Under the pieces are notes generated by a model. It was not told where the DNA came from and made no database searches. It worked only from the letters and a program-made list of their open reading frames with translations. 64,000 bases of DNA, taken from the NCBI RefSeq assembly GCF_964355755.1, contig NC_092675.1, positions 18,552,912-18,616,911 on the forward strand, written 5' to 3'. Shown here piece after piece: positions 18,401 to 56,802 of the stretch. The position numbers and the translations under genes are program-made. Within the stretch, counting starts at the first letter, position 1; every line of letters begins with the position of its first letter. This stretch comes from Antedon mediterranea. Taxonomy: Eukaryota > Echinodermata > Crinoidea > Comatulida > Antedonidae.

Positions 18401-21399
18401 TTTATTACTGTGGATGTGGGTAGGCCCTACTGTTAAATATACAAACACATATTATACAAATGAACTTTATTACTGTGAATGTGGGTAGGCCCTACTGTTA
18501 AATATACAAACACATATTATACAAATGAACTTTATTACTGTGAATGTGGGTAGGCCCTACTGTTAAATATACAAACACATATTATACAAATGAACTTTAT
18601 TACTGTGGATGTGGGTAGGCCCTACTGTTAAATATACAAACACATATTATACAAATGAACTTTATTACTGTGAATGTGGGTAGGCCCTACTGTTAAATAT
18701 ACAAACACATAATATACAAATGAACTTTATTACTGTGAATGTGGGTAGGCCCTACTGTTAAATATACAAACACATATTATACAAATGAACTTTATTACTG
18801 TGGATGTGGGTAGGCCCTACTGTTAAATATACAAACACATATTATACAAATGAACTTTATTACTGTGAATGTGGGTAGGCCCTACTGTTAAATATACAAA
18901 CACATATTATACAAATGAACTTTATTACTGTGAATGTGGGTAGGCCCTACTGTTAAATATACAAACACATATTATACAAATGAACTTTATTACTGTGAAT
19001 GTGGGTAGGCCCTACTGTTAAATATACAAACACATAATATACAAATGAACTTTATTACTGTGAATGTGGGTAGGCCCTACTGTTAAATATACAAACACAT
19101 ATTATACAAATGAACTTTATTACTGTGAATGTGGGTAGGCCCTACTGTTAAATATACAAACACATATTATACAAATGAACTTTATTACTGTGAATGTGGG
19201 TAGGCCCTACTGTTAAATATACAAACACATAATATACAAATGAACTTTATTACTGTGAATGTGGGTAGGCCCTACTGTTAAATATACAAACACATATTAT
19301 ACAAATGAACTTTATTACTGTGAATGTGGGTAGGCCCTACTGTTAAATATACAAACACATATTATACAAATGAACTTTATTACTGTGAATGTGGGTAGGC
19401 CCTACTGTTAAATATACAAACACATAATATACAAATGAACTTTATTACTGTGGATGTGGGTAGGCCCTACTGTTAAATATACAAACACATAATATACAAA
19501 TGAACTTTATTACTGTGAATGTGGGTAGGCCCTACTGTTAAATATACAAACACATATTATACAAATGAACTTTATTACTGTGAATGTGGGTAGGCCCTAC
19601 TGTTAAATATACAAACACATATTATACAAATGAACTTTATTACTGTGAATGTGGGTAGGCCCTACTGTTAAATATACAAACACATAATATACAAATGAAC
19701 TTTATTACTGTGAATGTGGGTAGGCCCTACTGTTAAATATACAAACACATATTATACAAATGAACTTTATTACTGTGAATGTGGGTAGGCCCTACTGTTA
19801 AATATACAAACACATATTATACAAATGAACTTTATTACTGTGAATGTGGGTAGGCCCTACTGTTAAATATACAAACACATATTATACAAATGAACTTTAT
19901 TACTGTGAATGTGGGTAGGCCCTACTGTTAAATATACAAACACATATTATACAAATGAACTTTATTACTGTGAATGTGGGTAGGCCCTACTGTTAAATAT
20001 ACAAACACATATTATACAAATAAACTTTATTACTGTGAATGTGGGTAGGCCCTACTGTTAAATATACAAACACATATTATACAAATGAACTTTATTACTG
20101 TGAATGTGGGTAGGCCCTACTGTTAAATATACAAACACATATTATACAAATGAACTTTATTACTGCGAATGTGGGTAGGCCCTACTGTTAAATATACAAA
20201 CACATAATATACAAATGAACTTTATTACTGACAGTTGTTTCTTAACGTTTGTATTAATTATTTAATTACTAAACATTATATTTCAATCGACTATGACAGT
20301 GACAGTTTTAACAAAATAATAAATCGCAAATGTGTTAATGTATTTAGTGGTATAATTTTTATAGGCCTATAAAACATGAAAAAATATTTTGTTAACTGAT
20401 AAAGATGGATTAAGAATAAACGTTTTTCCTCTTTGTACCCATCTTCTTCCCCATCCCCCATCCCTCAACCCTTAATGTTATATACAAAACACAAATTGGG
20501 TTTATTTAAATGAGTCCAAATCAAAAATTTTGTGACAAGTTTCTCTTTCGAAATTAATTCCCAGGGTGCTAATTTTAGTTGACTACATAAATCATCGTGT
20601 ACGGCACATCAATTTACAGCGACAGCTGTACGGTGACCGCGTGCGGCGATATACTTAATCTCGCGATTGTTCTGAAATCAGATGTACATTCCTAATACGT
20701 TGTTAAAATATGGTCCTCGGTCAATTTGTCCTTTAAACTCGGGCTGTTCGTGTTGACGGAACAAAATTTTGTGTGACGATATAGAGGGCACACCACATTA
20801 CAAAAGTCATATTTGGCCATTATACTAATTTGACTGATGTACTGTTAGAAAAGATAATAACAACGGTTTCACCTATACCATTCTTACACGAGATTTAAAC
20901 ATAGGCAGTCCGTCGTGTCGATGGAACCAAATTATGTGTGACGATATAGAGGGCGCACTACATTACTCACAAAACTTTATTAAAGTAGTTTGTTAAAATA
21001 ATATATCAATACATTTAACCTGTTTTTATTGTGTAGGTTCTAACTAAGCTAGACACATTTATGTGTTACGGTCCGGTGGTTCAAAATGGTTACGGTGCCT
21101 CATATAATCCTCATGAAGATTATATACTGTTTGCCATATCATCTTTCAAAGATTGTTCAGAAACCGATTCGACTATCTTTCGAGAGACTCTATATAACTC
21201 ACTGATGGACATGCATAACCTGTGTTTAAAGATGAGCCGGAAGTTACGTCGGCAGAGTGCTGAAGTTCATAATGATATCTGCACAGAGAACGGTGACGTA
21301 AAAAATGGTGACGAAGATTACGTATCGGAAAATTCAGTTCAAAATGGCGATGTAATTATAAATGGTAGTAGTAGTAGTAACAATTCTAATGGACTGTAA
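6485..21399 (+). CDS. CHAT: Choline O-acetyltransferase, eleven coding exons
   Basis: Transfers acetyl from acetyl-CoA to choline to make acetylcholine in the cytoplasm of cholinergic neurons. Coding exons: 6485-6721, 7012-7184, 7663-7843, 8044-8218, 8520-8716, 9092-9192, 9355-9489, 10343-10465, 10912-11050, 11239-11439 and 21037-21399. Phases join throughout, giving about 674 aa, in the usual range. Landmarks are LPPLPVPPL near the N terminus, [36 protein letters not shown], the catalytic-His segment YEHSPSEG (exon 6), [23 protein letters not shown] and [16 protein letters not shown]. These favour ChAT over carnitine acyltransferases. Ten introns are short; the last (11440-21036) is swollen by satellite and LINE. 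Intron 4 uses a GC donor at 8219. The start is uncertain: ATG 6485 is first, but an acceptor at 6525-6526 could make 6527 an internal exon edge. The C terminus is a low-complexity Asn/Asp/Gly/Ser tail. Confidence 0.95.
6796..6900. mobile_element. MITE, AAGCTCTGTCTA family, half copy in CHAT intron 1
   Basis: The copy begins AAGCTCTGTCTATCAAACTT and keeps the left internal blocks and 'gacatcatcatgtccat', then stops. The right terminal inverted repeat is missing. Confidence 0.65.
9592..9918 (+). mobile_element. tRNA-derived SINE with (AATC)n tail
   Basis: The head is tRNA-like with a Ser/Leu-type A box (GTGGCCGAGCGGTTAAG) and a B box (GGGGTTCGAGGC), bounded by complementary GTGAGTGAG and CTCACTCAC stems. 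A roughly 220-bp body follows ('gttctggtggtagaacgag', 'cagccactgatcaccaact') and then an (AATC)n tail. It lies in CHAT intron 7, sense to the gene. A second member is on the minus strand at 21867-22158. Confidence 0.85.
10587..10760 (-). mobile_element. Probable LINE/SINE 3' end remnant in CHAT intron 8
   Basis: The stretch has a T-rich start, 'tttatttattcaacaatgg', and a terminal hairpin formed by 'ggggtcttctct' and 'cgagaaagacccc'. This fits a retroposon 3' end read on the minus strand. No coding part remains. Confidence 0.35.
11591..11956 (+). repeat. Left flank repeats of the satellite region
   Basis: Two copies of a module of about 160 bp with the core 'gacgatatagagggcgcact' (first copy 'gacgatttagagggcgcact') lie near 11591 and 11752. 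They are followed at 11840-11956 by a block ('agaacaatcacgagattaag', 'atatcgccgcacgc', 'gtcgctgtaaattg') that recurs inverted at 20607-20720. Together they frame the satellite and LINE block in the last CHAT intron. Confidence 0.65.
12261..12542 (+). repeat. Tandem duplication, unit about 140 bp
   Basis: Two adjacent diverged copies share 'aaaacgaatttaggttc', 'gttttccgatcgtggta', 'tgtccttgaaaaatacccac' (one base differs in copy 1) and 'ggatgcttcgcatttac'. Non-coding, inside the last CHAT intron. Confidence 0.75.
12836..13487 (+). repeat. 65-bp satellite array 1, about ten copies
   Basis: The unit starts gtgggtaggccctactgtta and ends ctttattactgtgaat. Successive starts are 65 bp apart (12836, 12901, 12966 and so on). 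Copies are almost identical; the main variants are an A/T change in 'cacata(a/t)tat' and gaat/ggat at the unit end. The array is interrupted at 13487 by the LINE and resumes at 18028. Confidence 0.97.
13515..14792 (+). CDS. LINE ORF1: coiled coil, SGNH esterase-like domain, zinc knuckles
   Basis: About 425 aa from the first in-frame ATG after the satellite. Residues around 70-130 look like a coiled coil. From about 205 to 365 there is an SGNH/GDSL hydrolase-like domain: block I IIGDSM (Ser near 214), the HAGTNDCGN block, and a C-terminal HGLHLNERG block that keeps His, although the residue three before it is not the usual Asp. Two CCHC zinc knuckles close the protein ([14 protein letters not shown] near 386 and [14 protein letters not shown] near 408). 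CR1-clade ORF1 proteins are known to carry esterase domains. Its likely role is RNA binding in the retrotransposition particle. The frame stays open upstream into the satellite. Confidence 0.85.
   Translation: MNSSSLLISPFASTPTRCVKENQTRTYNSIAEISDNETREISTQTPQVKITDVSIQTPSHWDQIPTLKSKIRKQDGKISELITQLNELKHIHSNFVQLTSSFKELNERNLILETQFASLRHEKAEEQNEYRTPSKACKIKDPVKSTTHVQTTNRFAAIAVNDAPTPDHDTSVSQDEQTSSVIYLNDSKVEQDTPKPEPIIRHMELKENLIIGDSMLKHIRTRGLINTSVKTLRGATVQQITATIQEINLSQVRNVIVHAGTNDCGNPNFNKNKLQLDFHELMVYLQSRITGKVYVSGLCPRLDNPQLNLHVLQTNEMLKANFKDCFIDNFKAFLSPFGLDTSKFTRHGLHLNERGTTALIKSINSSVTILKTNTRQTELTSSIASCHFCGENGHIRRICRHRKPLQCWYCQEDGHKAKFCLLQQQ
14817..17775 (+). CDS. LINE ORF2: AP endonuclease plus reverse transcriptase, one frameshift
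   Basis: Main frame to 17411 (about 864 codons), then about 120 codons in another frame to 17775. N-terminal APE-type endonuclease: [27 protein letters not shown] and the catalytic SDH in GISDHSAIY. Reverse transcriptase: [75 protein letters not shown] and the active-site YADD near 16966-16977. The tail ([11 protein letters not shown].., SLWNTL) is typical of CR1/L2 ORF2. The frame change falls in an A run at 17397-17406, so one base gained or lost explains it. No ATG precedes the endonuclease. ORF2 lies in the ORF1 frame, directly after its single TGA. Confidence 0.88.
17843..17908 (+). repeat. 17-bp AT-rich tandem repeat in the LINE 3' UTR
   Basis: About four copies of a unit reading ttgttatttttaaaa(t). 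Confidence 0.8.
18028..20229 (+). repeat. 65-bp satellite array 2, about 34 copies, with higher-order order
   Basis: Same unit as at 12836-13487. Two units (starting 18028 and 18287) are 64 bp because one A is lost after 'ctgtta'. The order of variants in units 1-4 (64-bp/A, A with ggat, T, T) is repeated exactly in units 5-8, a 259-bp higher-order repeat. Further right an A-T-T three-unit rhythm is visible. The array ends abruptly at 'tttattactg' before unique sequence. Confidence 0.97.
20607..20975. repeat. Right flank repeats of the satellite region
   Basis: 20607-20720 is the inverted copy of the block at 11840-11956. Near 20773 and 20937 are two more copies of the module with core 'gacgatatagagggc', in the same orientation as those at 11591 and 11752 and about 164 bp apart. 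Confidence 0.65.
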
Positions 21400-23107: not shown

Positions 23108-23257
23108 AAAGCCCTGTCTAAACTATCAAATTCTATGTGACAAAAAACGTGATGTGCCCATACATGGACACGATGACGTCATATCGCTACCATATTTGGG
23201 CATATTACTACCATATTTGGACACATCACACTTTTTTGATAGTGTAAAAAGAGCTTA
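23108..23257. mobile_element. MITE, AAGCTCTGTCTA family
   Basis: The ends are AAGCCCTGTCTAAACTATCA and GATAGTGTAAAAAGAGCTT. The internal blocks are in inverted order relative to 3510-3669 ('ggacacgatgacgtcatat', 'ccatatttgggcatattac'). Confidence 0.75.
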
Positions 23258-35502: not shown

Positions 35503-35557
35503 TTAGTTTGGACCTTTACAGTACAATCATTAGTGTCTGCACCGCCAAACAATCAAG

Positions 35558-37402
35558 ATGCGCCCAATACTGGCGATCATCGGCTTTGTCGCACTTGCGA
35601 CAGCGTGTGAAGATGGTTGGGAGTCATACAATGGCTACTGCTACTTGTTTAATCAAATAGGTGGTAACCGGAACTATGCTGATTCTGAAGTATTTTGTTT
35701 GAACCACGGAGCACACCTGGTGTCTATTCATAGTGAAGCTGAGAACGATTTCGTTACCAGAACAGCACGGGATTTAGATATGGGTAATACGTGGATAGGG
35801 CTTGATGATAATGGTCATGAAAACGAATTTACATATTTGGATGGAACACCTTTCTATAGAGGTGGATACACTAGAGGTGAACCTAACAATCACGGGGCTG
35901 GACAGGACTGTTCTTATTTTCCATTTGGACCGACACCATATGGATGGGACGACTTAGATTGTAGCCGGAACAGCAGATTTGTATGTGAAAAAAATGTTGA
36001 ATGCGAAGAAGGATGGATTACGTGGGGACAAAATGGCCATTGTTACAAGTTTTTTCCAGAAGAAATGATTTACGCCCAAGCCAAGGCAAGATGTACTGAA
36101 GAAGGTGGTTACTTGGTATCAATTACAACCGACGATGAGAATACTTTCGTCATTAGGAATGTTGCTATAGAAATAAGTGGAAGTGAAAGGCCACCAAGAA
36201 CATGGGTTGGTCTAGACGACACAGATACGGAAGGGCTATGGCATTATGCTGATGAATTGGATACTGAATCTTTTGTTGGCCGGTTTTCAAGAGGAGAACC
36301 GAACAACGCTGGCTCCGGACAGAATTGTGTGTGGTTTCCGTTTCGTGAAGATGATGCATGGGATGATGTTTCGTGTGGGGCGCAACGAAAAGCTGTCTGC
36401 AAGAAACCTGACTTTCAACAAATGGCGACAAGCTGCAGCGGTAATTGGCTTTCATATGGCGACAGCTGCTACAAGTTCGACAATACACAACGAAACTATG
36501 CTGCATCTGAAGAATATTGCACTACTCAAGGAGGGCATATGGTGTCTATTCATAACGACGCGGAGAATGCTTTCGTTATCGATAAAGCACAAGAACTGGA
36601 TTTGCGTAATACGTGGATAGGCCTTGATGATAATGGTCATGAAAACGTCTTTACATTTTTGGATGGAACAGATTTCTTTAGAGGTGGATACACTAGAGGT
36701 GAACCTAACGATTGGGGAGGTAATCAGGACTGTTCCTACTTTCCATTTAGAGAGACGTATGGATGGGACGACATGCGCTGTAGCAATAGTGCACAGTATA
36801 TATGTGAAAATGTAGCTCCATGTGCAGCTGGCTGGACCGAGAATCAAGGACATTGCTACAAGCGCTATAGTGATTCCGTTGATTATCCTACAGCTAAGGC
36901 ATCGTGTATTGGACATGGTGGTTATATATTAGCAATTACAACCCCGGAAGAGAATGAGTATGTTTATGATAATATTCAAGATGATCCGTCGTCGGACCCA
37001 CCAACAACATGGGTTGGTATAGACGACATGCAATATGAAGGGAGATTTACTTTGGCTGAACCTGGTAATGATTTTTTTAATGGACGGTTTTCAAGAGGAG
37101 AACCAAACAACGCTGGCTCCGGACAGAATTGTGCGTGGTTTCCGTTTCGTGATCCATATTCGTGGGATGATATTTCGTGTGAGGCGCAAAGAAGCGTTGT
37201 CTGTAAGAAACCTGATCCAGCACGCAGGTTTGCTGATGACATGGCTCGTCATTTGAAAGATACCTTGTTGCATATGCGGGACGCATGTTTTGCGTCCGAA
37301 CAACTGACGGTCGAAGATGACACACAAAATATGTGTGAAAAGGTAGAAGAGGTGATTAATACATTAATAGAAGATTGTGGAGGCGGCGCCAATGACGAGT
37401 AA
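35558..37402 (+). CDS. Secreted lectin with four C-type lectin domains, intronless
   Basis: One open frame of 614 aa with a short signal peptide (MRPILAIIGFVALATA, residues 1-16). Four C-type lectin domains follow at about 17-145, 146-284, 285-417 and 418-552, then a helical acidic tail with two or three Cys. Each domain has the EPN motif (Glu near 108, 247, 382, 515), which in this family goes with calcium-dependent mannose-type binding, and a WDD in place of WND. Domains 1 and 3 share NTWIGLDDNGHEN and GGYTRGEPN; domains 2 and 4 share GRFSRGEPNNAGSGQNC and CKKPD, so the gene grew by duplicating a two-domain module. A role in innate immunity or adhesion is inference. It has no introns although neighbours are split. 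The start is fixed by the signal peptide and nearby promoter motifs. Confidence 0.93.
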   Translation: MRPILAIIGFVALATACEDGWESYNGYCYLFNQIGGNRNYADSEVFCLNHGAHLVSIHSEAENDFVTRTARDLDMGNTWIGLDDNGHENEFTYLDGTPFYRGGYTRGEPNNHGAGQDCSYFPFGPTPYGWDDLDCSRNSRFVCEKNVECEEGWITWGQNGHCYKFFPEEMIYAQAKARCTEEGGYLVSITTDDENTFVIRNVAIEISGSERPPRTWVGLDDTDTEGLWHYADELDTESFVGRFSRGEPNNAGSGQNCVWFPFREDDAWDDVSCGAQRKAVCKKPDFQQMATSCSGNWLSYGDSCYKFDNTQRNYAASEEYCTTQGGHMVSIHNDAENAFVIDKAQELDLRNTWIGLDDNGHENVFTFLDGTDFFRGGYTRGEPNDWGGNQDCSYFPFRETYGWDDMRCSNSAQYICENVAPCAAGWTENQGHCYKRYSDSVDYPTAKASCIGHGGYILAITTPEENEYVYDNIQDDPSSDPPTTWVGIDDMQYEGRFTLAEPGNDFFNGRFSRGEPNNAGSGQNCAWFPFRDPYSWDDISCEAQRSVVCKKPDPARRFADDMARHLKDTLLHMRDACFASEQLTVEDDTQNMCEKVEEVINTLIEDCGGGANDE

Positions 37403-38439: not shown

Positions 38440-39150
38440 TTATAATTCAACTGGCCATTATGATGACGTCACAACATCCGATGCGCAAAATTCGTACATG
38501 AATTCGTATTTACAATTCAAAAGCTTCCAGAAAATTTTGTAATCATGAGTATCACTTTTCATTCTGAGGAGCTATAACAAATTGAAATTTACTGTAATGA
38601 TGAAAATAAGTGATCCAGGCTATTCACGCTTTCGAACATAAATCATGCGAAAGATAATTGATTGACCTTGACAATATCAAAATATGGGGGAAAATTGGAA
38701 TACGGATAAGTGGAGCGCTCTATTAAATGTGATGAGCTATGACGAAAGAGACAGATGAGTGGAAATAGACTTTTCAGTCAAACAAATTGCAACAGTTTGT
38801 TTTTTTGCTGAAACATGCTCAACTATATGTAGATATTATCATATCCAAAATCTACCCTGATCTGCCCATAATAAATTACCTAATTTGCATAAAATCAAAA
38901 TGGCTGCCATTTTACAACTTTGATCCCAATTATCTCTTAAACCATAAAGAATTTGGTGTAAGAATGTAGTGAAAACAAATATAAACATGACCCCAAAGAT
39001 TCAGAATATATCTGATTTGTCTTTGGGGTCAGGGTCAAAGGTCATTCCAGTTTGACATCTAAAATATGCTAATTATCTCTTAATCCATTAGGTATTTTGA
39101 ATAAGAATGTATAAGTACAAATATAAATGTGACCCTAAAGATTTAAAATA

Positions 39151-41237: not shown

Positions 41238-42290
41238 TAGATAATTTGATTTAAAAAAAAATTATAGATGATAATTTATAAATTACTAATTATCAGAAAG
41301 CTAAGTTTATTGGTCTACTCTGATGTAATTTTACTGAATTCTCAGTGAAGCGAGAATTGTCCAGAGTATGGCAAAAACATCTTTTCGATCGAGTCTGACC
41401 CAAGAACTATATAGTATGCCTAAATGTAAAATTAAATGTCAAAATAAGAATGACCTACTGATCCTATATGTAAATTTAGTAGTTATAATATTTAATAAAT
41501 AAACAATTTTTTCAAAATGTTTAAGGTAAAATCATTGATCTAGTAATCTCTGGGTGGGAGGAGTGTGGGCGCAGTTTGCAGACATCAATCTGCTGCAATG
41601 TCTGTACTGTATATGCTATGTTTTTAGTAGTAGTAAGACTACTATGCAAATTGATTTAAAGGATAATTTGAATTTTTTTTATATTGTGACCTTTGACCCA
41701 GTGACCCCAGGGTAAGATGAAAAATCAAATGTGCTATTCTGAATCTTAAGGGTCATGTTTATATTTGTACTTTGACATTCTTATTCAAAATACCTAATGG
41801 ATTAAGAGATAATTAGCATAATTTAGATGTCAAACTGGAATGACCTTTGACCTTGACCCCAAAGACAAATCAAATATATTATTCTGATTCTTTGGGGTCA
41901 TGTTTATATTTGTGTTCAATACATTCTTATACCAAATTCTTTATGGTTTAAGATATAATTGGGATCAAAGTTGTAAAATGGCAGCCATTTTGATTTTATG
42001 CAAATTAGGTAATTTATAATGGGCAGATCAGGGTAGATTTTGGATATGATAATATCTACATATAGTTGAGCATGTTTCAGCAAAAAAACAAACTGTTGCA
42101 ATTTGTTTGACTCAACGCCTATTTTTCATCTATTTCCACTCATCTAAAAAAAAAATCATATATTTTATATTGGAGTGGCCATAAGATGACGTGAAAATGT
42201 CCGGTTAGCCATATTGATGCATGATCCGATATCTACAACTCATCTACTTCCAGAATATGTAATAAAAATAAAACTTCACAATTTAGTTCA

Positions 42291-43219: not shown

Positions 43220-46200
43220 TCAAAAATAGCATTTGATTGACCTAGGCCATTTAAAAGGCCACTCGTACTCATTAGGTACAATACCATTAACATTAGACTC
43301 AAAATAATAAAACATAGGAAACCAAACTTGTGCTCTTCTATCTGCATGGTGCAATGTTTTGTTATTCGCAAGTGTATGATAATAAAGAAATAAACGAGAC
43401 GAAATATAAAAAGCTATGACAACATCAATTGAATAATGTTCATGGCCTGCTAAGATAAAGAAAATGCCAAACAGATTGAGAACCCATGTCAGTGTGTGAA
43501 GAAGAGTAAACCTTCGCGGGGTGTCTGCAAAAGAGAATTAAATAAAATCACATTAGAAAGTAAGCCATGACCTGGAATGGCTGTTAAACATACGGGGGAA
43601 GTACACATATGTTGGCCACATGTTGCTAAAGGTTCTGAGTTTTTAAGCTGAGTGAAGCAGTTAAGATATGACAACTGGTGAGTACCACACATAATAATAA
43701 TGATGATAAGTTGAATAATGATAATAAATTAAATAATGTTCAATCCTATAGACGACTTTGGTCGCTTTGCGTTAAATGTTGATGTTAAAATATTATTAAA
43801 GGGGGATTCTGGGTTTAAAATTGCTTTTAAATATCGTTTATTTATTAAATAAAAAATATTATAACAATATAGACATGTCAGAATGAAGAAGTAATAACGA
43901 GAAATTAAAAAAATTAAATTTCATACATTTTAGGGTAAATTCATGGAAAGTCTGTTTTTCAGCAGCTTAGGGAAGCTCATTAATATTCATGAGATATTCA
44001 CAAAATCACGTCGCCAGTGGATTCCAAACTCGCGACGTCATGTACGTTGTCTTTGTCAACTAATTTCCCGACTAATTTACATCTCTCTCCCCTGTCAAAC
44101 GACGACCACCCGATCATTGTGAAATACATTTTTTGTAGATTTTCTAAGCTAGGCCTAAAGTGTAATAATAACAGTAGTAGCATATATTTATTTGACATTT
44201 AATGAAATACCAAATTTAGTACAGATTACGGAGTCATAAATTATACTATTTTTATACCTCTATAGTACAGATTGTATTATCGGCTTCACGTACAATACTA
44301 CTCGAGGCCTAGCCTAATGGGCGAGAGCCATTCTGACTAGGGATTCCATGCCATGATGGCTACGTTAAAACAGTGGGGCCCATAGGCCTAGCTAGCCTAC
44401 TACTAGACGATTGGCCCATAAATAATAAAACCCATCCTATCAACCAAACTCATAAACAATCTAAACCTAAAACGTTCTACAAAATCGGCTGTAAATATTG
44501 AAGCAAAACAAGGTCCGATCGCCGTCCACACGTATGGTGTCCCGATCGTCTAAAATAAAATAGGCTTAGTTTACTCTCCAAAAAAGCGGATACTCATGCA
44601 TCAAGCAAGTAGACCAGGTAGTAGGAAGGAGACCTAGCCGATCCGGCCCAGTTAAAAATTGAGCTAGCTAGTGTAGTAGACCATATGCGAATTGATACTA
44701 CCAGGCCTTTTACTATAGACTGCACTACACAAATATTCCAACTCTCTCATTTGAGCTATATTATCTATACCATTCCGGTAGGTCGAGTCAACCTTCAATC
44801 AAATACTGTATATCGTTCATGTTGTGATTATAGACGGGGTATACTCGACCCGACCAGTTTGGTATTGTTGAATCTGCTTATCACGTGACGATGCCAGGCA
44901 TGGGCAGCAGAGAGAGCACGTGTATCGTCGTCTCGCTCGATCCTCAGCAGGAATGTACAGTATACGTTACGCTTCATTGATTTTGATTTTTCCCTAAGTC
45001 GGTGCGAAAATCGGCAAACGTAAAGTGCAAACATATCTAATTTTTCACTATTTTGATGAATTTTCATTAAAAAATGACTTTATAAATGGGAAGACCGACT
45101 AAAATTACATCAGATAAGTATAATTTTACAAAAGTAATTGATATGGTTAATGATAACGAGTCGTCGGAAGATGGACCATTTCACGAATTTCCTATTTTGT
45201 AACCACAGTGTGATTTTGCCGTAGCTGCACTTGTAATCTGGCCTGATTTTACAGCTTTCGTTCTGCTTCACTGGGCGCTTATATAAATTGAAACTTTTAC
45301 CGTTCAAGAGACAAACAAATATATTTTACATTTTTTACTATTCATTTTAAACCCGGAACCCCCCTTTAAATAAATAATAATGACAACAACAATTATAAAT
45401 AAATTATATATAAATAAAATACACAATGTGGAAGCTCTGATGAAGTATTGCAAGATCAAAAACAATGCAATATTTTGAAATAGCTGTATGAGTAATAAAT
45501 ACAAATAATACTGCCGATACTATCAATGCCACTAATAAATTTCCTGATACCCTATGACGTCATTTTTATGTTATGAGCATGCGCAAGTCGACCGACACGT
45601 CAACTTTTTTGGACTGAGTACGAATGGACGTTTTAAAATCATAAAACTGTAAAAAGATGGCGGAGAATGATCTCACGATGATTTTTAAGAATTTAGAATT
45701 GCATTTTTTGTCGATGAGTAACAGTTGTAATTCAAATCTCAAAGTCTAACGTCTTTAGATTGGTTTACCTAAATACTAGTTATGTTTTCATTCTCCACAT
45801 CAATAATATTGTTTGCCTAAAATAACCAACATTAGATAAACAAAAGTATACCTACATTCAGTAATAAACATGTTTGACATGGTAAGACAAACAGTGTGTC
45901 CACTGAACATATAATCACCGCATGTGTGTACTCCAGTAAGAGACATACCCAGTCCAAATGAAATTTCAAATGCCCTATTTAATTTGGTCCATATGTCACC
46001 ATATACCTTATTAAGAAACAAAAAAGATTGTAAGTTACCAGTTATGATTTTCGAAATATGCTATCCCTGGGTGCAATGAAGGACTTACATTATAAACAGG
46101 AATGTGTGTATACTAAATATTGCAATAAATATGTGACCTACAGTATTATAAATTCATTGTTTATGGTATTGTAAGCCACCCAAGCTCACCATAAACACAC

Positions 46201-47627
46201 ACATAAGACTAGGCTTGCTTAGCACTATACACTTTTACTAAAAAACATCTCTTCCAGTTTTTGAAATCTTAGTTCTACCTCTGGGACTACAAAAAAAGAC
46301 AAAAAAAAATACTATTTACCTTTCCAGCACACTGTAAGTGGATTCCAGGCACTGAGAGGGATGTTACAAACATTGTAACACACCGTAATAGAAACACAGT
46401 ACCAAGTAGTGCAAAGCAACGGCGCAAGACAATAAACCTAAAAAAATAATGTTTTAAAGATCAGTTACAATCAATAACAAAACAAACATTATTTCTCAAA
46501 GGTTAGGCCAAATAACAAGAAGTTCCCTCCCACTATATAAAAATGACTTTTAACCAAGGCTATTTAAATATTTTTTTCGAATCCTTCGATTTTTCATAGC
46601 AAACAACATGATTGTGGTCATCAACCTAAATAGCTAAAGCTCTTCATAAAAAAAAAGAATTTAAAATCCTGGACATGAAACTAACAATTCTTTTGGACTT
46701 CAATCTATTTATGATCAAACTCTATCAGTAAGGTTTGCATACATGTATAATTAAGTATCACTCTTGTTTGAGATGTCAATGATTGAATACAGTCTTATTT
46801 TCATCTGAAAGCTCTGTCTACACTATCAAACTAGTTTGACAAAAAAGTGTGATGTTCCCAAATATGGTAGTGACATGCCCAAATATGGTAGTGATATGTG
46901 ACAAAAAATGGACATGATGATGTCATATCACTATCATATTTGGGAACATCATTACCATATTTGGGCACATCACACAAACTAGTTTGATAGATAGTGTAGA
47001 CAGCACACATATTTACCTATGTTTATGTATAAATATTGTAATCGAGAAAATTGATGCAAGGATTAATCCGCACATCTCACATGCTTGAAAAGCCCATGGT
47101 ATCATAGGCACACTGTCCAGAAAAATGTCAGGTAGAGGAGGGTACTTTGTCATATCTGGAACACGGTCATGTACAACTACCATTACAAAAGCTGTCAGAA
47201 GGGCTACAACAAAAGCATAAACAAAACTGATAACTGTCTTGTGTATTTCACGTTCAAACTTTGGTTTATTAATATCTGTGGAATCTTGATATTGTACGTT
47301 TTTTTTTGATCGTATATTTCTGCGGCGTAAATGAATAAAATCCCCTGAACTTGGTTTTCCATTTGTTTTGAAGGTGTCAATGCTGTCATATTCACTGGTT
47401 TGGTTGGTTTGAAGTGTAGAAATAAGAAGATAAAGCCTTTTAATGTCTCCTAATATTTTTAATTGTAGTGGTGGAGTTTTTAGGTCATCCTCATTGAGTA
47501 ATAAAAGAGCTTTCCCATCGATTTTATGCTTGTCACAGAGAATCTTGCTATATTGTTGAAATCCATTGTGAATCAGCCATTGCTCTACATCAGAGCAAGT
47601 CCAAGTACTAGCAGATGTAGAATACAT
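43220..47627 (-). CDS. SAMD8: SAMD8 / SMSr, ceramide phosphoethanolamine synthase, complete copy
   Basis: ER membrane enzyme of the sphingomyelin synthase family that makes ceramide phosphoethanolamine. Minus-strand exons in reading order: 47627-47017, 46437-46320, 46006-45856, 43524-43220; phases fit and give 394 aa. An N-terminal SAM domain (about 8-75: [25 protein letters not shown]) precedes several membrane spans. Family markers are [35 protein letters not shown], and the catalytic residues in GDYMFSGHT (His about 280) and GHEHYSIDV (His about 323, Asp about 327), followed by [12 protein letters not shown] and VPNEYEWPF. The exon-3 donor is set by conservation: gtaggt after GAA T gives TEYTPR. 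An acceptor just 5' of the ATG implies a non-coding first exon upstream, perhaps with its donor near 48426. The first two exons and part of the third lie in the 5.2 kb duplication. Confidence 0.93.
43796..45369. mobile_element. 1.6 kb DNA element with TTAA target site (piggyBac-like ends)
   Basis: Lies in SAMD8 intron 3. The left end TTAAAGGGGGATTCTGGGTT and right end (inverted) TTAAAGGGGGGTTCCGGGTT match over about 28 bp, with TTAA as the outermost four bases at both ends. No transposase ORF is visible, so it is non-autonomous. The interior includes a C/G-richer CTAG-rich patch (44290-44960). Confidence 0.7.
46808..47003. mobile_element. MITE, AAGCTCTGTCTA family, longest copy
   Basis: About 195 bp in SAMD8 intron 1. 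The ends are AAGCTCTGTCTACACTATCA and GATAGATAGTGTAGACAG. Its two halves are near-perfect inverted copies ('gtgatgttcccaaatatgg' against 'ccatatttgggcacatcac'), so it can form one long hairpin. The duplicated copy is at 52035-52230. Confidence 0.82.
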
Positions 47628-47644
47628 ATTGAAAAGAATACCTC

Positions 47645-48965
47645 TGAAAAGAAACCATCATTATTGATGAAATTAAATCAAAACCAATTAATAATAATAT
47701 ACTGTATGATAATGTGTGAACATAAAATTAAATTTGTGAAAAGAACACAATTATTATAGTACACAATACAGAATAAATATACTGTATTATAACAAATTAA
47801 TTAGTTAGGCTAGCTAGGTCATCTAATCACTGGCTAAGCTAGCCAAACTAGCTAGGCCGACAAGTAGGATAGCTATCTGGTTAGCCCAGAGATTTGTAAT
47901 TAGACTACTGTAGCTCCCTACTACACAGACTACTACTACTAACTATAATAGTTTTAGTACAGACTACTAACAAAGTAAACTAGCCTAGCCGGCTCATCAA
48001 GACAAGAGGCTAATAATAATGAAAAGGCTAGCCTACTACTAGAAGCAAAGACTGTATAGCGCCGCTCGCACAACAATCTTTGCTACAAGGGCCTAGCACT
48101 GCAGTAGCTAGTCTACAGTACAGCTTAGAACAGTACAGTACAGTACAGGGGATCCGTCTACACTCTCAATCCTAACAAGGGCCTACTAGGCTAGTCTATA
48201 GGTACGTAGGGCCAGGGCCAGGCCTATCTAGCCTACTAGCTAGACGGACAAGTCGCGCCGTAAAACATGGTTTACTATTCCTCAAGGTATGTGAGGAGAA
48301 ACTACTGTTTTTTGGAATATTCTTACATTTACAACAAAAAGGCTGGTCTGATAAGCGTAGGCCTCTACTATCTAATAAATAAGTAGGAGGTAGGCCTAGA
48401 AATGTGTGTAGAACGCCCATCATACCTGCCAGCACATGACACGCTCCGTGGGCGTTTTGAGGCCAAAGGTTATAAAGAGTTACCATTTCCCTCTTAACCT
48501 ACATTAATATGGTAATTTTAGATCGTCGGTTATTTAATTGTTAAAGCATTATAAAAAACGTATTAATAATATAAATGTTAACAAATTAAATTTTAACTAA
48601 TAAAAAAAGTGTAAGCAATAAAACAAAAATCAAATATTATTATTGTTATATTGTGCATAATTCCCATTACCAAAATGGAGCTTTCTTCCTCATAAATATT
48701 CATTTGACAATAATGTCAAAAAGATTATTCAAGCGTAGAAATGACAACAATGGAAGGCATGTTCTTTGTAAAACTCGGCCAAAAAGCTTAATAATGCGTA
48801 ATAAAAGCCACGTAGCACTGAGGTAAAGGTCTTTTGCTAATTAACAGGAAATCTTCTATTTTTTGAACAGAAAATTTCTTTTAACCCGTAATGTAAAATT
48901 GTCAATTCTTATTGATTGTGGAGACGATCAACCTGGGTCCTGGATTTGATAAACAGGATAGCGAG
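47645..48965. promoter_or_regulatory. Shared SAMD8-PLA2G12 divergent promoter region, copy 1
   Basis: The two genes point away from each other across about 1.3 kb. The part at 47790-48230 is unusually rich in CTAG, AGGCCTA and GTAC-type short palindromes. A possible minus-strand donor near 48426 (CTGGCAG|gtatga) may end the non-coding SAMD8 first exon. The 14 bp of indels that separate the copies fall here (near 48215 and 48392). No TATA box stands out, which fits a broad bidirectional promoter. The right copy is at about 52872-54206. Confidence 0.5.
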
Positions 48966-49802
48966 ATGCAGATAAGTAGTAGCAAGATGTATTGGGAAAA
49001 TCTAGGCCTACTCACGATGGTAATAATGTTTACGAACTACTGTGCTGCAAGTGACTTCCAGTTGCCACCCGAACTAAACGACGGTGTACAGCTAAGCCCC
49101 GAAAAATCAGCACGAGTTATTGAGAGTATAAAAAAGCTGGGCGAATTGTATGACAAGGCTGACATTGGAAACAAAAACCAAAATATTGACTGTGGATTTT
49201 ATTGTCCAACAGGTAGGCATCCATTATCAAATAACTAAACATGTGATTCATTTACCTGGCATGCATTAAATAGTTATATGTTTTTGTTAGGCCTATTTAC
49301 ATCCTATAGTAACCCATAATATCAAAGGACATATAACATGTAAGTTCTTTGATAATATTAATTAAAAACAATTAAAGATAAACTTGGATAATGGCACAGC
49401 TATTTTATATTACCAAAAATAAAAGTTAAAATTGTGCATACAAAAGTATATGAACCATTAATTGAGTGCAATAAATACAGTATATATGATGAATGAATTC
49501 CATTAATATTAGGTAAACAAATATGCAAGCAGTTATAAATTCATTTAGTAGATTTTATTGTTAAATCAAAACTTAAAATGGAACAAATAAATACATTTTT
49601 TCGAAATTATATTTCAGATCTTATAGCCGTTGAAAAACCAAAACATAAAGTCTATCCAGATGGCTGTGGAAACCCAGAAAACAAGGTACTGTATTATTTC
49701 TGTAGTTACAGATACAGGTGTCATTTGGAATCTTTTGGAGAATAAAAACATAGGCTGCTTTAAGACATGAACAAGATCTCTTACAGTTGGATTGACCTAA
49801 CT

Positions 49803-49986
49803 AAAGGGTCTTTCACACTTGTTCCGGTCCGGGGCCGGCAAATCCAATTGAACGTCAATGTTTTGTTTTTACGTGGCTACGCGCATATCGATTGGCGCAT
49901 AGCCGCGTAGAGCATCGTGAAAACGAAACATTGGCGTTCGATTTGCCGGACCGGAACCGTGTCGGAACAGGTGTGAAAGACCCTTT
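49803..49986. mobile_element. Palindromic MITE in PLA2G12 intron 2
   Basis: About 184 bp between TA dinucleotides. The ends AAAGGGTCTTTCACACTTGT and the complement of GGTGTGAAAGACCCTTT pair, as do inner blocks (ccggtccggggccggcaaat against atttgccggaccgg). Non-coding. The second copy at 55044-55227 comes from the segmental duplication. Confidence 0.78.
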
Positions 49987-50269
49987 AGTGCCTAGAAGCA
50001 AGACTAATATACTGTATCTCAATGTCCAGATCCAAAACGGTTGATCCCGAAATTTGCAATTGTTGCTTTGTGATCAACATACTACACTTCACTCCACTCA
50101 TGGAAATTCCTTCCAGAACCTATCAAGACATGTTTTCTATAATATTTATAGGTCTATGATATAAGTATTATGAACTTTTAGAAGTTTACAAAGATGTTCA
50201 GACGTCATGTGGTTGTAAAATAACCTAATCATCTGAACTCAGCGAAATGTGAAACTGATTATTTTAAAC

Positions 50270-50450
50270 TGTTGTATATATTTGTGTTACTTTTTCTGTA
50301 TTTAAGTTTATTTCATTTTTACACTCTAGTGGGTCGGAGAGTCACTCGATAGTGTTTTATTTCACTTTTTGACAATCCCGTCTACCCCCTAAAGTGCTCT
50401 GTACCCTGTGATTTTTATTATTTAAAAAAGACGAAATAAATGAAATGACA
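50270..50450 (+). mobile_element. Probable retroposon 3' end in PLA2G12 intron 2
   Basis: 'tgtatttaagtttatttca' through a C-rich segment to 'gacgaaataaatgaaatga' resembles a LINE/SINE 3' end. No coding part. It is repeated at about 55511-55691 by the duplication. Confidence 0.3.
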
Positions 50451-51185
50451 TCAGATGCTATCACCCCCTACCCTTTTTGCTTTTTTTGTTATCATTTTAA
50501 TTTCATGTTTCATAAGCCATGTTTATTCAGCCTTGTGTAAACAATTCATTTGCATTTCGTAATTTGAAATACACAGAGAGTTATACAAGTTGCAATCTGT
50601 ACATTCAATTTTGTTTATAATTGTTTTTCTTCAGCTTGATTTTCCAGTTGTACCTGAAATTATAAAATGCTGTGATACACATGACATCTGTTATGGAACC
50701 TTTGGAAAAGTTAAACAAATATGCGATAAACATTTGCACACGTGCATGGAAACAGAATGTAGAACTGCTATGAAATCTCTTGGGTTTAAAGAATCACAAG
50801 AACAAGGTAATATACAGTAGTACAATAAAAAAAAATTTTTACCAAAAAATGTGTCCTTCCACAACGTTGTATTATATACTAGGCCTAAAAAAGAAATAAA
50901 ATATGTTCAGTTAAAGAAAAATATTTTAGTATTTAAGAAATATGTACAGGTCAGCATAATTAATAAAGATATTCAGAAAAATAAATTATTGACATTTTGC
51001 CCTTACATTTTGTGATGGTATTATAGTAGCCTACTATAGTAAAGGGTTTATGGATAGTTAATTCTACAGCCCTCCTTTCCTTGGCCCCCTCTATTTTGAT
51101 ATCCATGATCCATCACTGATCATTTATTTTGTGTCGGCAGCTGTGAGTCAGAAAGAAGGGGAGTGGGTTAATCATGCATTATTGT

Positions 51186-52854
51186 TTAAATTTCAAATGC
51201 CCTATTTAATTTGGTCCATATGTCACCATATACCTTATTAAGAAACAAAAAAGATTGTAAGTTACCAGTTATGATTTTCGAAATATGCTATCCCTGGGTG
51301 CAATGAAGGACTTACATTATAAACAGGAATGTGTGTATACTAAATATTGCAATAAATATGTGACCTACAGTATTATAAATTCATTGTTTATGGTATTGTA
51401 AGCCACCCAAGCTCACCATAAACACACACATAAGACTAGGCTTGCTTAGCACTATACACTTTTACTAAAAAACATCTCTTCCAGTTTTTGAAATCTTAGT
51501 TCTACCTCTGGGACTACAAAAAAAGACAAAAAAAAATACTATTTACCTTTCCAGCACACTGTAAGTGGATTCCAGGCACTGAGAGGGATGTTACAAACAT
51601 TGTAACACACCGTAATAGAAACACAGTACCAAGTAGTGCAAAGCAACGGCGCAAGACAATAAACCTAAAAAAATAATGTTTTAAAGATCAGTTACAATCA
51701 ATAACAAAACAAACATTATTTCTCAAAGGTTAGGCCAAATAACAAGAAGTTCCCTCCCACTATATAAAAATGACTTTTAACCAAGGCTATTTAAATATTT
51801 TTTTCGAATCCTTCGATTTTTCATAGCAAACAACATGATTGTGGTCATCAACCTAAATAGCTAAAGCTCTTCATAAAAAAAAAGAATTTAAAATCCTGGA
51901 CATGAAACTAACAATTCTTTTGGACTTCAATCTATTTATGATCAAACTCTATCAGTAAGGTTTGCATACATGTATAATTAAGTATCACTCTTGTTTGAGA
52001 TGTCAATGATTGAATACAGTCTTATTTTCATCTGAAAGCTCTGTCTACACTATCAAACTAGTTTGACAAAAAAGTGTGATGTTCCCAAATATGGTAGTGA
52101 CATGCCCAAATATGGTAGTGATATGTGACAAAAAATGGACATGATGATGTCATATCACTATCATATTTGGGAACATCATTACCATATTTGGGCACATCAC
52201 ACAAACTAGTTTGATAGATAGTGTAGACAGCACACATATTTACCTATGTTTATGTATAAATATTGTAATCGAGAAAATTGATGCAAGGATTAATCCGCAC
52301 ATCTCACATGCTTGAAAAGCCCATGGTATCATAGGCACACTGTCCAGAAAAATGTCAGGTAGAGGAGGGTACTTTGTCATATCTGGAACACGGTCATGTA
52401 CAACTACCATTACAAAAGCTGTCAGAAGGGCTACAACAAAAGCATAAACAAAACTGATAACTGTCTTGTGTATTTCACGTTCAAACTTTGGTTTATTAAT
52501 ATCTGTGGAATCTTGATATTGTACGTTTTTTTTTGATCGTATATTTCTGCGGCGTAAATGAATAAAATCCCCTGAACTTGGTTTTCCATTTGTTTTGAAG
52601 GTGTCAATGCTGTCATATTCACTGGTTTGGTTGGTTTGAAGTGTAGAAATAAGAAGATAAAGCCTTTTAATGTCTCCTAATATTTTTAATTGTAGTGGTG
52701 GAGTTTTTAGGTCATCCTCATTGAGTAATAAAAGAGCTTTCCCATCGATTTTATGCTTGTCACAGAGAATCTTGCTATATTGTTGAAATCCATTGTGAAT
52801 CAGCCATTGCTCTACATCAGAGCAAGTCCAAGTACTAGCAGATGTAGAATACAT
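51186..52854 (-). pseudogene. SAMD8: SAMD8 copy 2, truncated; junction creates a stop
   Basis: Minus-strand exon 1 (52854-52244) and exon 2 (51664-51547) are intact. Exon 3 begins normally at 51233 but after 15 codons (.. RAFEI) the duplication junction is reached, and the next codon is TAA (51188-51186). The unspliced product would be 258 aa: the SAM domain and first membrane spans, without the catalytic GDYMFSGHT and HYSID segments. It could act as a non-catalytic SAM-bearing membrane protein, or be silent. Alternatively, transcripts could skip the broken exon and join copy-1 exon 3, which is also phase 0, giving a normal protein from a second promoter. Confidence 0.88.
52035..52230. mobile_element. 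MITE, AAGCTCTGTCTA family, duplicated copy
   Basis: Same as 46808-47003, carried along by the segmental duplication and not an independent insertion. Confidence 0.82.
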
Positions 52855-54206
52855 ATTGAAAAGAATACCTCTGAAAAGAAACCATCATTATTGATGAAAT
52901 TAAATCAAAACCAATTAATAATAATATACTGTATGATAATGTGTGAACATAAAATTAAATTTGTGAAAAGAACACAATTATTATAGTACACAATACAGAA
53001 TAAATATACTGTATTATAACAAATTAATTAGTTAGGCTAGCTAGGTCATCTAATCACTGGCTAAGCTAGCCAAACTAGCTAGGCCGACAAGTAGGATAGC
53101 TATCTGGTTAGCCCAGAGATTTGTAATTAGACTACTGTAGCTCCCTACTACACAGACTACTACTACTAACTATAATAGTTTTAGTACAGACTACTAACAA
53201 AGTAAACTAGCCTAGCCGGCTCATCAAGACAAGAGGCTAATAATAATGAAAAGGCTAGCCTACTACTAGAAGCAAAGACTGTATAGCGCCGCTCGCACAA
53301 CAATCTTTGCTACAAGGGCCTAGCACTGCAGTAGCTAGTCTACAGTACAGCTTAGAACAGTACAGTACAGTACAGGGGATCCGTCTACACTCTCAATCCT
53401 AACAAGGGCCTACTAGGCTAGTCTATAGGTACGTAGGGCCAGGCAGGGAGGGCCAGGCCTATCTAGCCTACTAGCTAGACGGACAAGTCGCGCCGTAAAA
53501 CATGGTTTACTATTCCTCAAGGTATGTGAGGAGAAACTACTGTTTTTTGGAATATTCTTACATTTACAACAAAAAGGCTGGTCTGATAAGCGTAGGCCTC
53601 TACTATCTAATAAATAAGTAGGAGGTAGGCCTAGGCCTAGAAATGTGTGTAGAACGCCCATCATACCTGCCAGCACATGACACGCTCCGTGGGCGTTTTG
53701 AGGCCAAAGGTTATAAAGAGTTACCATTTCCCTCTTAACCTACATTAATATGGTAATTTTAGATCGTCGGTTATTTAATTGTTAAAGCATTATAAAAAAC
53801 GTATTAATAATATAAATGTTAACAAATTAAATTTTAACTAATAAAAAAAGTGTAAGCAATAAAACAAAAATCAAATATTATTATTGTTATATTGTGCATA
53901 ATTCCCATTACCAAAATGGAGCTTTCTTCCTCATAAATATTCATTTGACAATAATGTCAAAAAGATTATTCAAGCGTAGAAATGACAACAATGGAAGGCA
54001 TGTTCTTTGTAAAACTCGGCCAAAAAGCTTAATAATGCGTAATAAAAGCCACGTAGCACTGAGGTAAAGGTCTTTTGCTAATTAACAGGAAATCTTCTAT
54101 TTTTTGAACAGAAAATTTCTTTTAACCCGTAATGTAAAATTGTCAATTCTTATTGATTGTGGAGACGATCAACCTGGGTCCTGGATTTGATAAACAGGAT
54201 AGCGAG

Positions 54207-56802
54207 ATGCAGATAAGTAGTAGCAAGATGTATTGGGAAAATCTAGGCCTACTCACGATGGTAATAATGTTTACGAACTACTGTGCTGCAAGTGACTTCC
54301 AGTTGCCACCCGAACTAAACGACGGTGTACAGCTAAGCCCCGAAAAATCAGCACGAGTTATTGAGAGTATAAAAAAGCTGGGCGAATTGTATGACAAGGC
54401 TGACATTGGAAACAAAAACCAAAATATTGACTGTGGATTTTATTGTCCAACAGGTAGGCATCCATTATCAAATAACTAAACATGTGATTCATTTACCTGG
54501 CATGCATTAAATAGTTATATGTTTTTGTTAGGCCTATTTACATCCTATAGTAACCCATAATATCAAAGGACATATAACATGTAAGTTCTTTGATAATATT
54601 AATTAAAAACAATTAAAGATAAACTTGGATAATGGCACAGCTATTTTATATTACCAAAAATAAAAGTTAAAATTGTGCATACAAAAGTATATGAACCATT
54701 AATTGAGTGCAATAAATACAGTATATATGATGAATGAATTCCATTAATATTAGGTAAACAAATATGCAAGCAGTTATAAATTCATTTAGTAGATTTTATT
54801 GTTAAATCAAAACTTAAAATGGAACAAATAAATACATTTTTTCGAAATTATATTTCAGATCTTATAGCCGTTGAAAAACCAAAACATAAAGTCTATCCAG
54901 ATGGCTGTGGAAACCCAGAAAACAAGGTACTGTATTATTTCTGTAGTTACAGATACAGGTGTCATTTGGAATCTTTTGGAGAATAAAAACATAGGCTGCT
55001 TTAAGACATGAACAAGATCTCTTACAGTTGGATTGACCTAACTAAAGGGTCTTTCACACTTGTTCCGGTCCGGGGCCGGCAAATCCAATTGAACGTCAAT
55101 GTTTTGTTTTTACGTGGCTACGCGCATATCGATTGGCGCATAGCCGCGTAGAGCATCGTGAAAACGAAACATTGGCGTTCGATTTGCCGGACCGGAACCG
55201 TGTCGGAACAGGTGTGAAAGACCCTTTAGTGCCTAGAAGCAAGACTAATATACTGTATCTCAATGTCCAGATCCAAAACGGTTGATCCCGAAATTTGCAA
55301 TTGTTGCTTTGTGATCAACATACTACACTTCACTCCACTCATGGAAATTCCTTCCAGAACCTATCAAGACATGTTTTCTATAATATTTATAGGTCTATGA
55401 TATAAGTATTATGAACTTTTAGAAGTTTACAAAGATGTTCAGACGTCATGTGGTTGTAAAATAACCTAATCATCTGAACTCAGCGAAATGTGAAACTGAT
55501 TATTTTAAACTGTTGTATATATTTGTGTTACTTTTTCTGTATTTAAGTTTATTTCATTTTTACACTCTAGTGGGTCGGAGAGTCACTCGATAGTGTTTTA
55601 TTTCACTTTTTGACAATCCCGTCTACCCCCTAAAGTGCTCTGTACCCTGTGATTTTTATTATTTAAAAAAGACGAAATAAATGAAATGACATCAGATGCT
55701 ATCACCCCCTACCCTTTTTGCTTTTTTTGTTATCATTTTAATTTCATGTTTCATAAGCCATGTTTATTCAGCCTTGTGTAAACAATTCATTTGCATTTCG
55801 TAATTTGAAATACACAGAGAGTTATACAAGTTGCAATCTGTACATTCAATTTTGTTTATAATTGTTTTTCTTCAGCTTGATTTTCCAGTTGTACCTGAAA
55901 TTATAAAATGCTGTGATACACATGACATCTGTTATGGAACCTTTGGAAAAGTTAAACAAATATGCGATAAACATTTGCACACGTGCATGGAAACAGAATG
56001 TAGAACTGCTATGAAATCTCTTGGGTTTAAAGAATCACAAGAACAAGGTAATATACAGTAGTACAATAAAAAAAAATTTTTACCAAAAAATGTGTCCTTC
56101 CACAACGTTGTATTATATACTAGGCCTAAAAAAGAAATAAAATATGTTCAGTTAAAGAAAAACATTTTAGTATTTAAGAAATATGTACAGGTCAGCATAA
56201 TTAATAAAGATATTCAGAAAAATAAATTATTGACATTTTGCCCTTACATTTTGTGATGGTATTATAGTAGCCTACTATAGTAAAGGGTTTATGGATAGTT
56301 AATTCTACAGCCCTCCTTTCCTTGGCCCCCTCTATTTTGATATCCATGATCCATCACTGATCATTTATTTTGTGTCGGCAGCTGTGAGTCAGAAAGAAGG
56401 GGAGTGGGTTAATCATGCATTATTGTTTAACCAAATTCATTTTAAAAATCAAACTTGTTTATTTTTTCAGGATGCAAAATGATGAGTAAATTGTTATTCT
56501 CTTCTATGATGAGCTCTAGTTGTGATGACTATAAAAAGGCACAGCAAAAGGCTATACTATGTGAGACTGATGACGACGATGATGATGATGACGACGACGA
56601 TAATGATAACGATGATGATAACGATGAAGATGGAAAGGCAACAAGCAAAGAAATAGATGAGAAATCATTAGAATATAATAATGATAGAATATACGAATCC
56701 GACGATGATTTTGTAAGTGTAGAAGTAGAGGATTCCGATGTTCTTGATGATGAAGATGTAATCAATATAGAAGATGATTTAAAAATAAAAGATGAACTAT
56801 AA
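54207..56802 (+). CDS. PLA2G12: Group XII secreted phospholipase A2, complete copy, acidic tail
   Basis: Exons 54207-54453, 54859-54926, 55876-56047 and 56471-56802 join in phase (272 aa). A signal peptide with core LGLLTMVIMF comes first. The second exon has the group XII calcium-loop-like segment DGCGNPENK, and the third has CCDTHDICYG with the catalytic His-Asp (about 121-122). Cys spacing follows PLA2G12A/B. The last exon continues the family fold (GCKMMSKLLFSSMM..C..C) and then adds some 75 residues rich in Asp and Glu, with a run of eleven Asp, absent from vertebrate members. The family hydrolyses the sn-2 ester of phospholipids or, in catalytically dead members, binds lipid; here the His-Asp pair is kept. 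I start at ATG 54207, the first in-frame ATG upstream of the signal peptide. The tail may be a calcium-binding or anchoring extension (inference). Confidence 0.92.
55044..55227. mobile_element. Palindromic MITE, duplicated copy
   Basis: Duplicate of 49803-49986 in intron 2 of the right-hand PLA2G12 copy. Confidence 0.78.

Follow-up and report, generated by a model that had tools for sequence, protein, structure and literature searches.

A probable, very recent tandem duplication across the divergent SAMD8 and PLA2G12 genes of Antedon mediterranea

Gene-fragment duplications in other systems and at the SAMD8/PLA2G12 locus

Drosophila yakuba carries tandem duplications that catch gene fragments, form chimeric genes or draw in non-coding sequence; in the part of PMC5460883 that bears on such events, these are treated as population variants. 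The figures taken from PMC6380325 describe the small recent segmental duplications of D. melanogaster as mostly strain-specific, with 72.6% of them singletons and 83.4% under 500 bp in length. Duplicated gene fragments may also be produced by assembly error. As excerpted from PMC9516828, some assemblies contain many false duplications, which may sit on one scaffold; gaps between the copies are a listed mark, some such duplications are closed by wrong gap filling, and read errors left uncollapsed give rise to "homotype" false duplications.

In the window analysed here, the whole 64-kb stretch of Antedon mediterranea DNA (C6:18552912–18616911), which is AT-rich and carries animal-type genes, SAMD8 and PLA2G12 stand head to head at 43220–56802 and a unit of 5.2 kb is present twice. 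This arrangement resembles the segregating duplications of D. yakuba, as described in the same part of PMC5460883, in being a direct repeat with partial genes at its internal junction and 5' gene parts joined to sequence from outside the gene; it differs from them in that SAMD8 and PLA2G12 are divergent, so that two 5' parts face each other and no sense-strand chimera of the two genes is formed. The copies differ little and are presumably young, like the small duplications of D. melanogaster in the figures of PMC6380325, whereas the length of the unit exceeds that of most of them. The false heterotype and homotype duplications outlined in PMC9516828 likewise consist of adjacent, near-identical partial gene copies, but the SAMD8/PLA2G12 copies lack an assembly gap between them and have very low divergence. 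The SAMD8/PLA2G12 duplication is another case of the known kind that catches gene fragments, and is ordinary in kind.

The duplicated unit and the two genes it interrupts

Self-BLAST of the window aligned positions 45961–51189 (the left copy, A) with positions 51188–56430 (the right copy, B) as a same-strand direct repeat whose copies abut head to tail, with an alignment length of 5,243, 99.714% identity, one mismatch and two gap openings. In a base-by-base alignment the copies differ at just three sites, all of which lie outside the modelled coding exons: 8 bp found in B only (53441–53448, the corresponding A site lying between 48213 and 48214), an extra 6-bp TAGGCC unit in B only (53626–53631, A site 48391), and a sole substitution, C at 56163 in B and T at 50922 in A. 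The right copy has the longer form at both indels, which total 14 bp and fall within the interval between the two start codons (47628–48986 in A, 52855–54227 in B). The 6-bp difference, being one TAGGCC unit, is of the form that replication slippage would produce. Near-identity runs up to the exact breakpoints at both ends of the unit, introns and dispersed repeats included, and then ends sharply, the flanks past the breakpoints being dissimilar. Such abutting same-strand copies, alike throughout and sharply bounded, have the features of a recent direct tandem duplication, one of the readings that the preliminary description had offered for 45961–56430; its figures of one substitution and 14 bp of indels in 5.2 kb, and the very small divergence that it claimed, were reproduced by the alignment.

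Exon models for both genes were built manually, on the guidance of splice signals and homology alone. The complete SAMD8 gene (43220–47627, minus strand; coding exons 47017–47627, 46320–46437, 45856–46006 and 43220–43524) encodes a protein of 394 aa in which SAM_1 and PAP2_C were matched by domain search. Also present are HYSIDV and a 10-residue motif, both of which we take to have roles in SAMD8 and SMS-related proteins, and the left gene is assigned to this group on these features. Residues 8–391 align with SMS-related protein 1 (8ijr), the nearest solved chain, with an E value of 2.1e-143. Over the whole assembly (354,431,138 bases in 18 contigs), the PAP2_C profile matched at two places only, 43373–43549 and 45845–45925, both belonging to the left SAMD8 (7 candidates scored); a separate gene resembling sphingomyelin synthase 1 or 2 was not found in the assembly at the sensitivity of this exon-by-exon search.

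The complete PLA2G12 gene (54228–56802, plus strand; exons 54228–54453, 54859–54926, 55876–56047 and 56471–56802) encodes 265 aa and scored 79.4 bits against PF06951 at a cut-off of 34 bits, which the inner copy also exceeded with 57.5 bits. These domain matches and the alignment with SMS-related protein 1 bear out the gene names given in the preliminary description. The inner PLA2G12 (48987–50806, plus strand; exons 48987–49212, 49618–49685 and 50635–50806) is a copy without exon 4; with readthrough of intron 3, its frame comes to 159 aa. It retains the exons bearing YPDGCGNP and CCDTHD, which are presumably the Ca-loop and catalytic site. In the whole assembly the PLA2G12 family model matched just two places, exon 3 of the complete gene and exon 3 of the inner copy. 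In human, SAMD8 and PLA2G12B are both in 10q22, and SGMS2 and PLA2G12A are both in 4q25; on these positions, the linkage of SAMD8 with PLA2G12 may be ancient. Among the titles found in a literature search on PLA2G12 with SAMD8, none concerned linkage of the pair.

The left breakpoint, 45961, lies inside SAMD8 coding exon 3 (45856–46006) and the right breakpoint, 56430, inside PLA2G12 intron 3 (56048–56470). With two divergent genes each cut once, a single complete SAMD8 is kept on the left side and a single complete PLA2G12 on the right side. The exon models thus agree with the earlier placement of the breakpoints, and with the claim that the outer genes are whole and the inner genes without their 3' ends. 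The inner SAMD8 (51188–52854, minus strand) is composed of exons 52244–52854 and 51547–51664 and the first 46 of the 151 nt of exon 3 (51188–51233). Its frame ends at a TAA created at the junction, giving 258 aa, and a domain search of this product found no PAP2_C match. An AATAAA located 60 nt past the junction on the same strand could act as a poly(A) signal for the inner SAMD8.

Origin of the duplication and its alternatives

The junction offers little to an exchange between repeats. Where they meet, A and B have only AA (2 bp, 51188–51189) in common in the base-by-base alignment, which is not above chance; 21% of 20,000 simulated breakpoint pairs of the same spacing in the window share at least 2 bp. 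Non-allelic recombination between repeats calls for long homology at the breakpoints. On the chance-level overlap and the dissimilar flanks, we reject repeat-mediated unequal crossing-over; so small an overlap makes no repeat-mediated exchange necessary and tells against one between long repeats. The overlap accords with end-joining or with replication restart, two processes that the sequence cannot by itself tell apart. In the course of events we propose, one break within exon 3 of SAMD8 and another within intron 3 of PLA2G12 would have led to a direct tandem duplication of ~5.23 kb, the broken ends being joined with 2 bp in common through end-joining or faulty replication restart. The event would add another start region, from which 5' parts of both genes face each other across the junction. 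Little harm is expected from such a change, chiefly on account of its geometry, in which the outer copies of both genes are left whole; as both genes are still complete, the duplication is probably close to neutral, and it may be segregating to this day.

The single substitution in 5,229 sites gives a divergence of 1.9e-4, with a 95% Poisson range of 5e-6 to 1.1e-3. At assumed rates of 1e-9 to 1e-8 substitutions per site and year, the point estimate of age is ~96,000 years at the slower rate and ~10,000 years at the faster; at their outermost, the 95% limits under the same assumed rates reach ~240 and ~530,000 years.

We consider it probable that the unit is a real and very recent direct tandem duplication. 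Its most serious rival is an assembly artefact, which the preliminary description had raised for two haplotypes: these, or uncollapsed copies of one haplotype, might have been set in series by the assembler and the gap closed. Errors of this type do occur and can place partial gene copies side by side, as excerpted from PMC9516828, and the three sites at which A and B differ are what alleles could show. Against this, no N bases are present in the 264 kb examined, the junction included, so that the assembly gap that is the usual, if not invariable, mark of a false duplication is absent between the copies; and ends sharing 2 bp would not be expected to have been joined by ordinary read overlap. 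A 701-bp probe of SAMD8 exons matched two places in the whole assembly, both of them in the window and at 100%, and found no third copy of this sequence there, this one assembly being the source of the copy-number evidence; the two matches of the PLA2G12 family model, both to exon 3, likewise favour a real duplication. None of the three differences is a change in homopolymer length, although the left copy holds nine homopolymers of at least 7, which makes simple read error a poor explanation. For two alleles of an outbred animal, a single substitution over 5.2 kb is also few. If heterozygosity is assumed to be 1%, the probability of at most one substitution between alleles, indels left out, is ~0.04 in the absence of recombination and much smaller where recombination occurs; for an assumed 0.2%, the corresponding values are 0.17 without recombination and 0.0003 with free recombination. 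At either assumed value, so close a match between two alleles is unlikely but not impossible in the limit of no recombination. A heterozygosity of 3.22% is given for one brittle star in the part of PMC11310086 drawn on here. With no N, no third place and one substitution, the artefact proposed earlier becomes the less likely account, and we regard it as unlikely though still of some weight.

It is much harder to credit a tandem duplication of greater age in which gene conversion has maintained the likeness of the copies. Tandem copies convert each other, so the process itself is unexceptional, but here the near-identity extends to the breakpoints themselves and takes in introns and dispersed repeats. 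To our knowledge, conversion tracts that span a whole duplicated unit are unusual, and no observation requires conversion at this locus; we hold this explanation to be extremely improbable. As a real duplication, the unit would be a clean example of a gene-interrupting duplication near its birth, with its breakpoints mapped, and would illustrate the protection that a divergent order gives to both genes. Automatic annotation may list two SAMD8 and two PLA2G12 genes here where probably one of each is whole.

Predicted products of the inner genes and sequence context

The preliminary description had counted two truncated genes at the inner positions. The inner 3' ends are indeed missing, but truncation is less settled for the transcripts, as the exon phases permit in-frame splicing to the 3' exons of the neighbouring copy. 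Exon 2 of PLA2G12 starts, and exon 3 ends, in phase 1 in the exon models, which would allow the left copy's exon 3 to be joined, with the frame preserved, to either exon 4 or exon 2 in the right copy, with predicted products of 265 aa and 345 aa, respectively. For SAMD8, the phases likewise match between exon 1 or 2 in the right copy and exon 2 or 3 in the left. The inner 5' parts may yield truncated transcripts, namely a 258-aa SAM-containing membrane stub without the catalytic domain and a PLA2G12 without exon 4; alternatively, they may skip the junction and be spliced onto the neighbouring 3' exons. Judged from sequence, it would be quite improbable that the duplication is both real and expressed either as an inner PLA2G12 transcript of exons 1-2-3-2-3-4, whose 345-aa product would have two copies of the Ca-loop/HD exons, or as the inner SAMD8 stub, oligomerising with the full enzyme via SAM. 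Were inner products expressed, this young variant would be a natural experiment in the making of a new protein from tandem duplication of a divergent pair.

A megablast survey of 264 kb found the SAMD8/PLA2G12 unit to be the sole same-strand pair of at least 1 kb and at least 90% identity outside two short-period arrays, these being one of ~68-bp period and the 65-bp arrays of the window (64 rows dropped by coordinate). When pairs down to 400 bp were taken in, again at 90% identity or more, the remaining same-strand pairs came, apart from the 65-bp arrays of the window, from short-period tandem arrays, with periods of ~68, 262 and 42 bp and one pair at a distance of 234 bp; one inverted pair was recorded. 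No other gene-sized duplication was seen in these 264 kb, which make up less than 0.1% of the 354-Mb genome. A genome search with the whole 5.2-kb unit, in which 39 of 4,503 candidates were scored, was dominated by two dispersed repeats and was uninformative on copy number, the window itself being absent from the 40 matches listed. Both lie in PLA2G12 intron 2 of A: a MITE-like repeat at 49802–49987, with many genomic matches at 86–96% among the matches listed, and a second repeat at 50232–50451, with at least five at 84–94% among those listed.

A search of the 18 contigs for mitochondrial COX1 gave no match. Several further features were observed in the window and its surroundings. A palindromic, MITE-like stretch, recognised by eye, is located at 46814–47003 and again at 52041–52230, and contains 21-bp units like CATATCACTACCATATTTGGG; units resembling these also occur at 23180 and 26453. 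An inverted repeat of ~390 bp (38763–39150 and 41735–42124, 94% identity) has further degenerate copies between its arms. A single open frame at 35534–37399 appears by eye to encode four C-type-lectin-like units of two alternating kinds. A LINE-like element at 12809–20230 is positioned within a 65-bp tandem array, with 10.4 array copies before it and 34 after it at 98% matches; its open frames (13404–14789 and 14793–17408) are, by eye, zinc-knuckle and endonuclease/RT-like. AATGT is found at both edges of the element, an arrangement suggesting that it inserted into the array and duplicated a short target sequence. Upstream of the window, a tandem array of ~4.8 kb (L009 5003–9774) has a period near 68 bp, its units being 96–97% alike.
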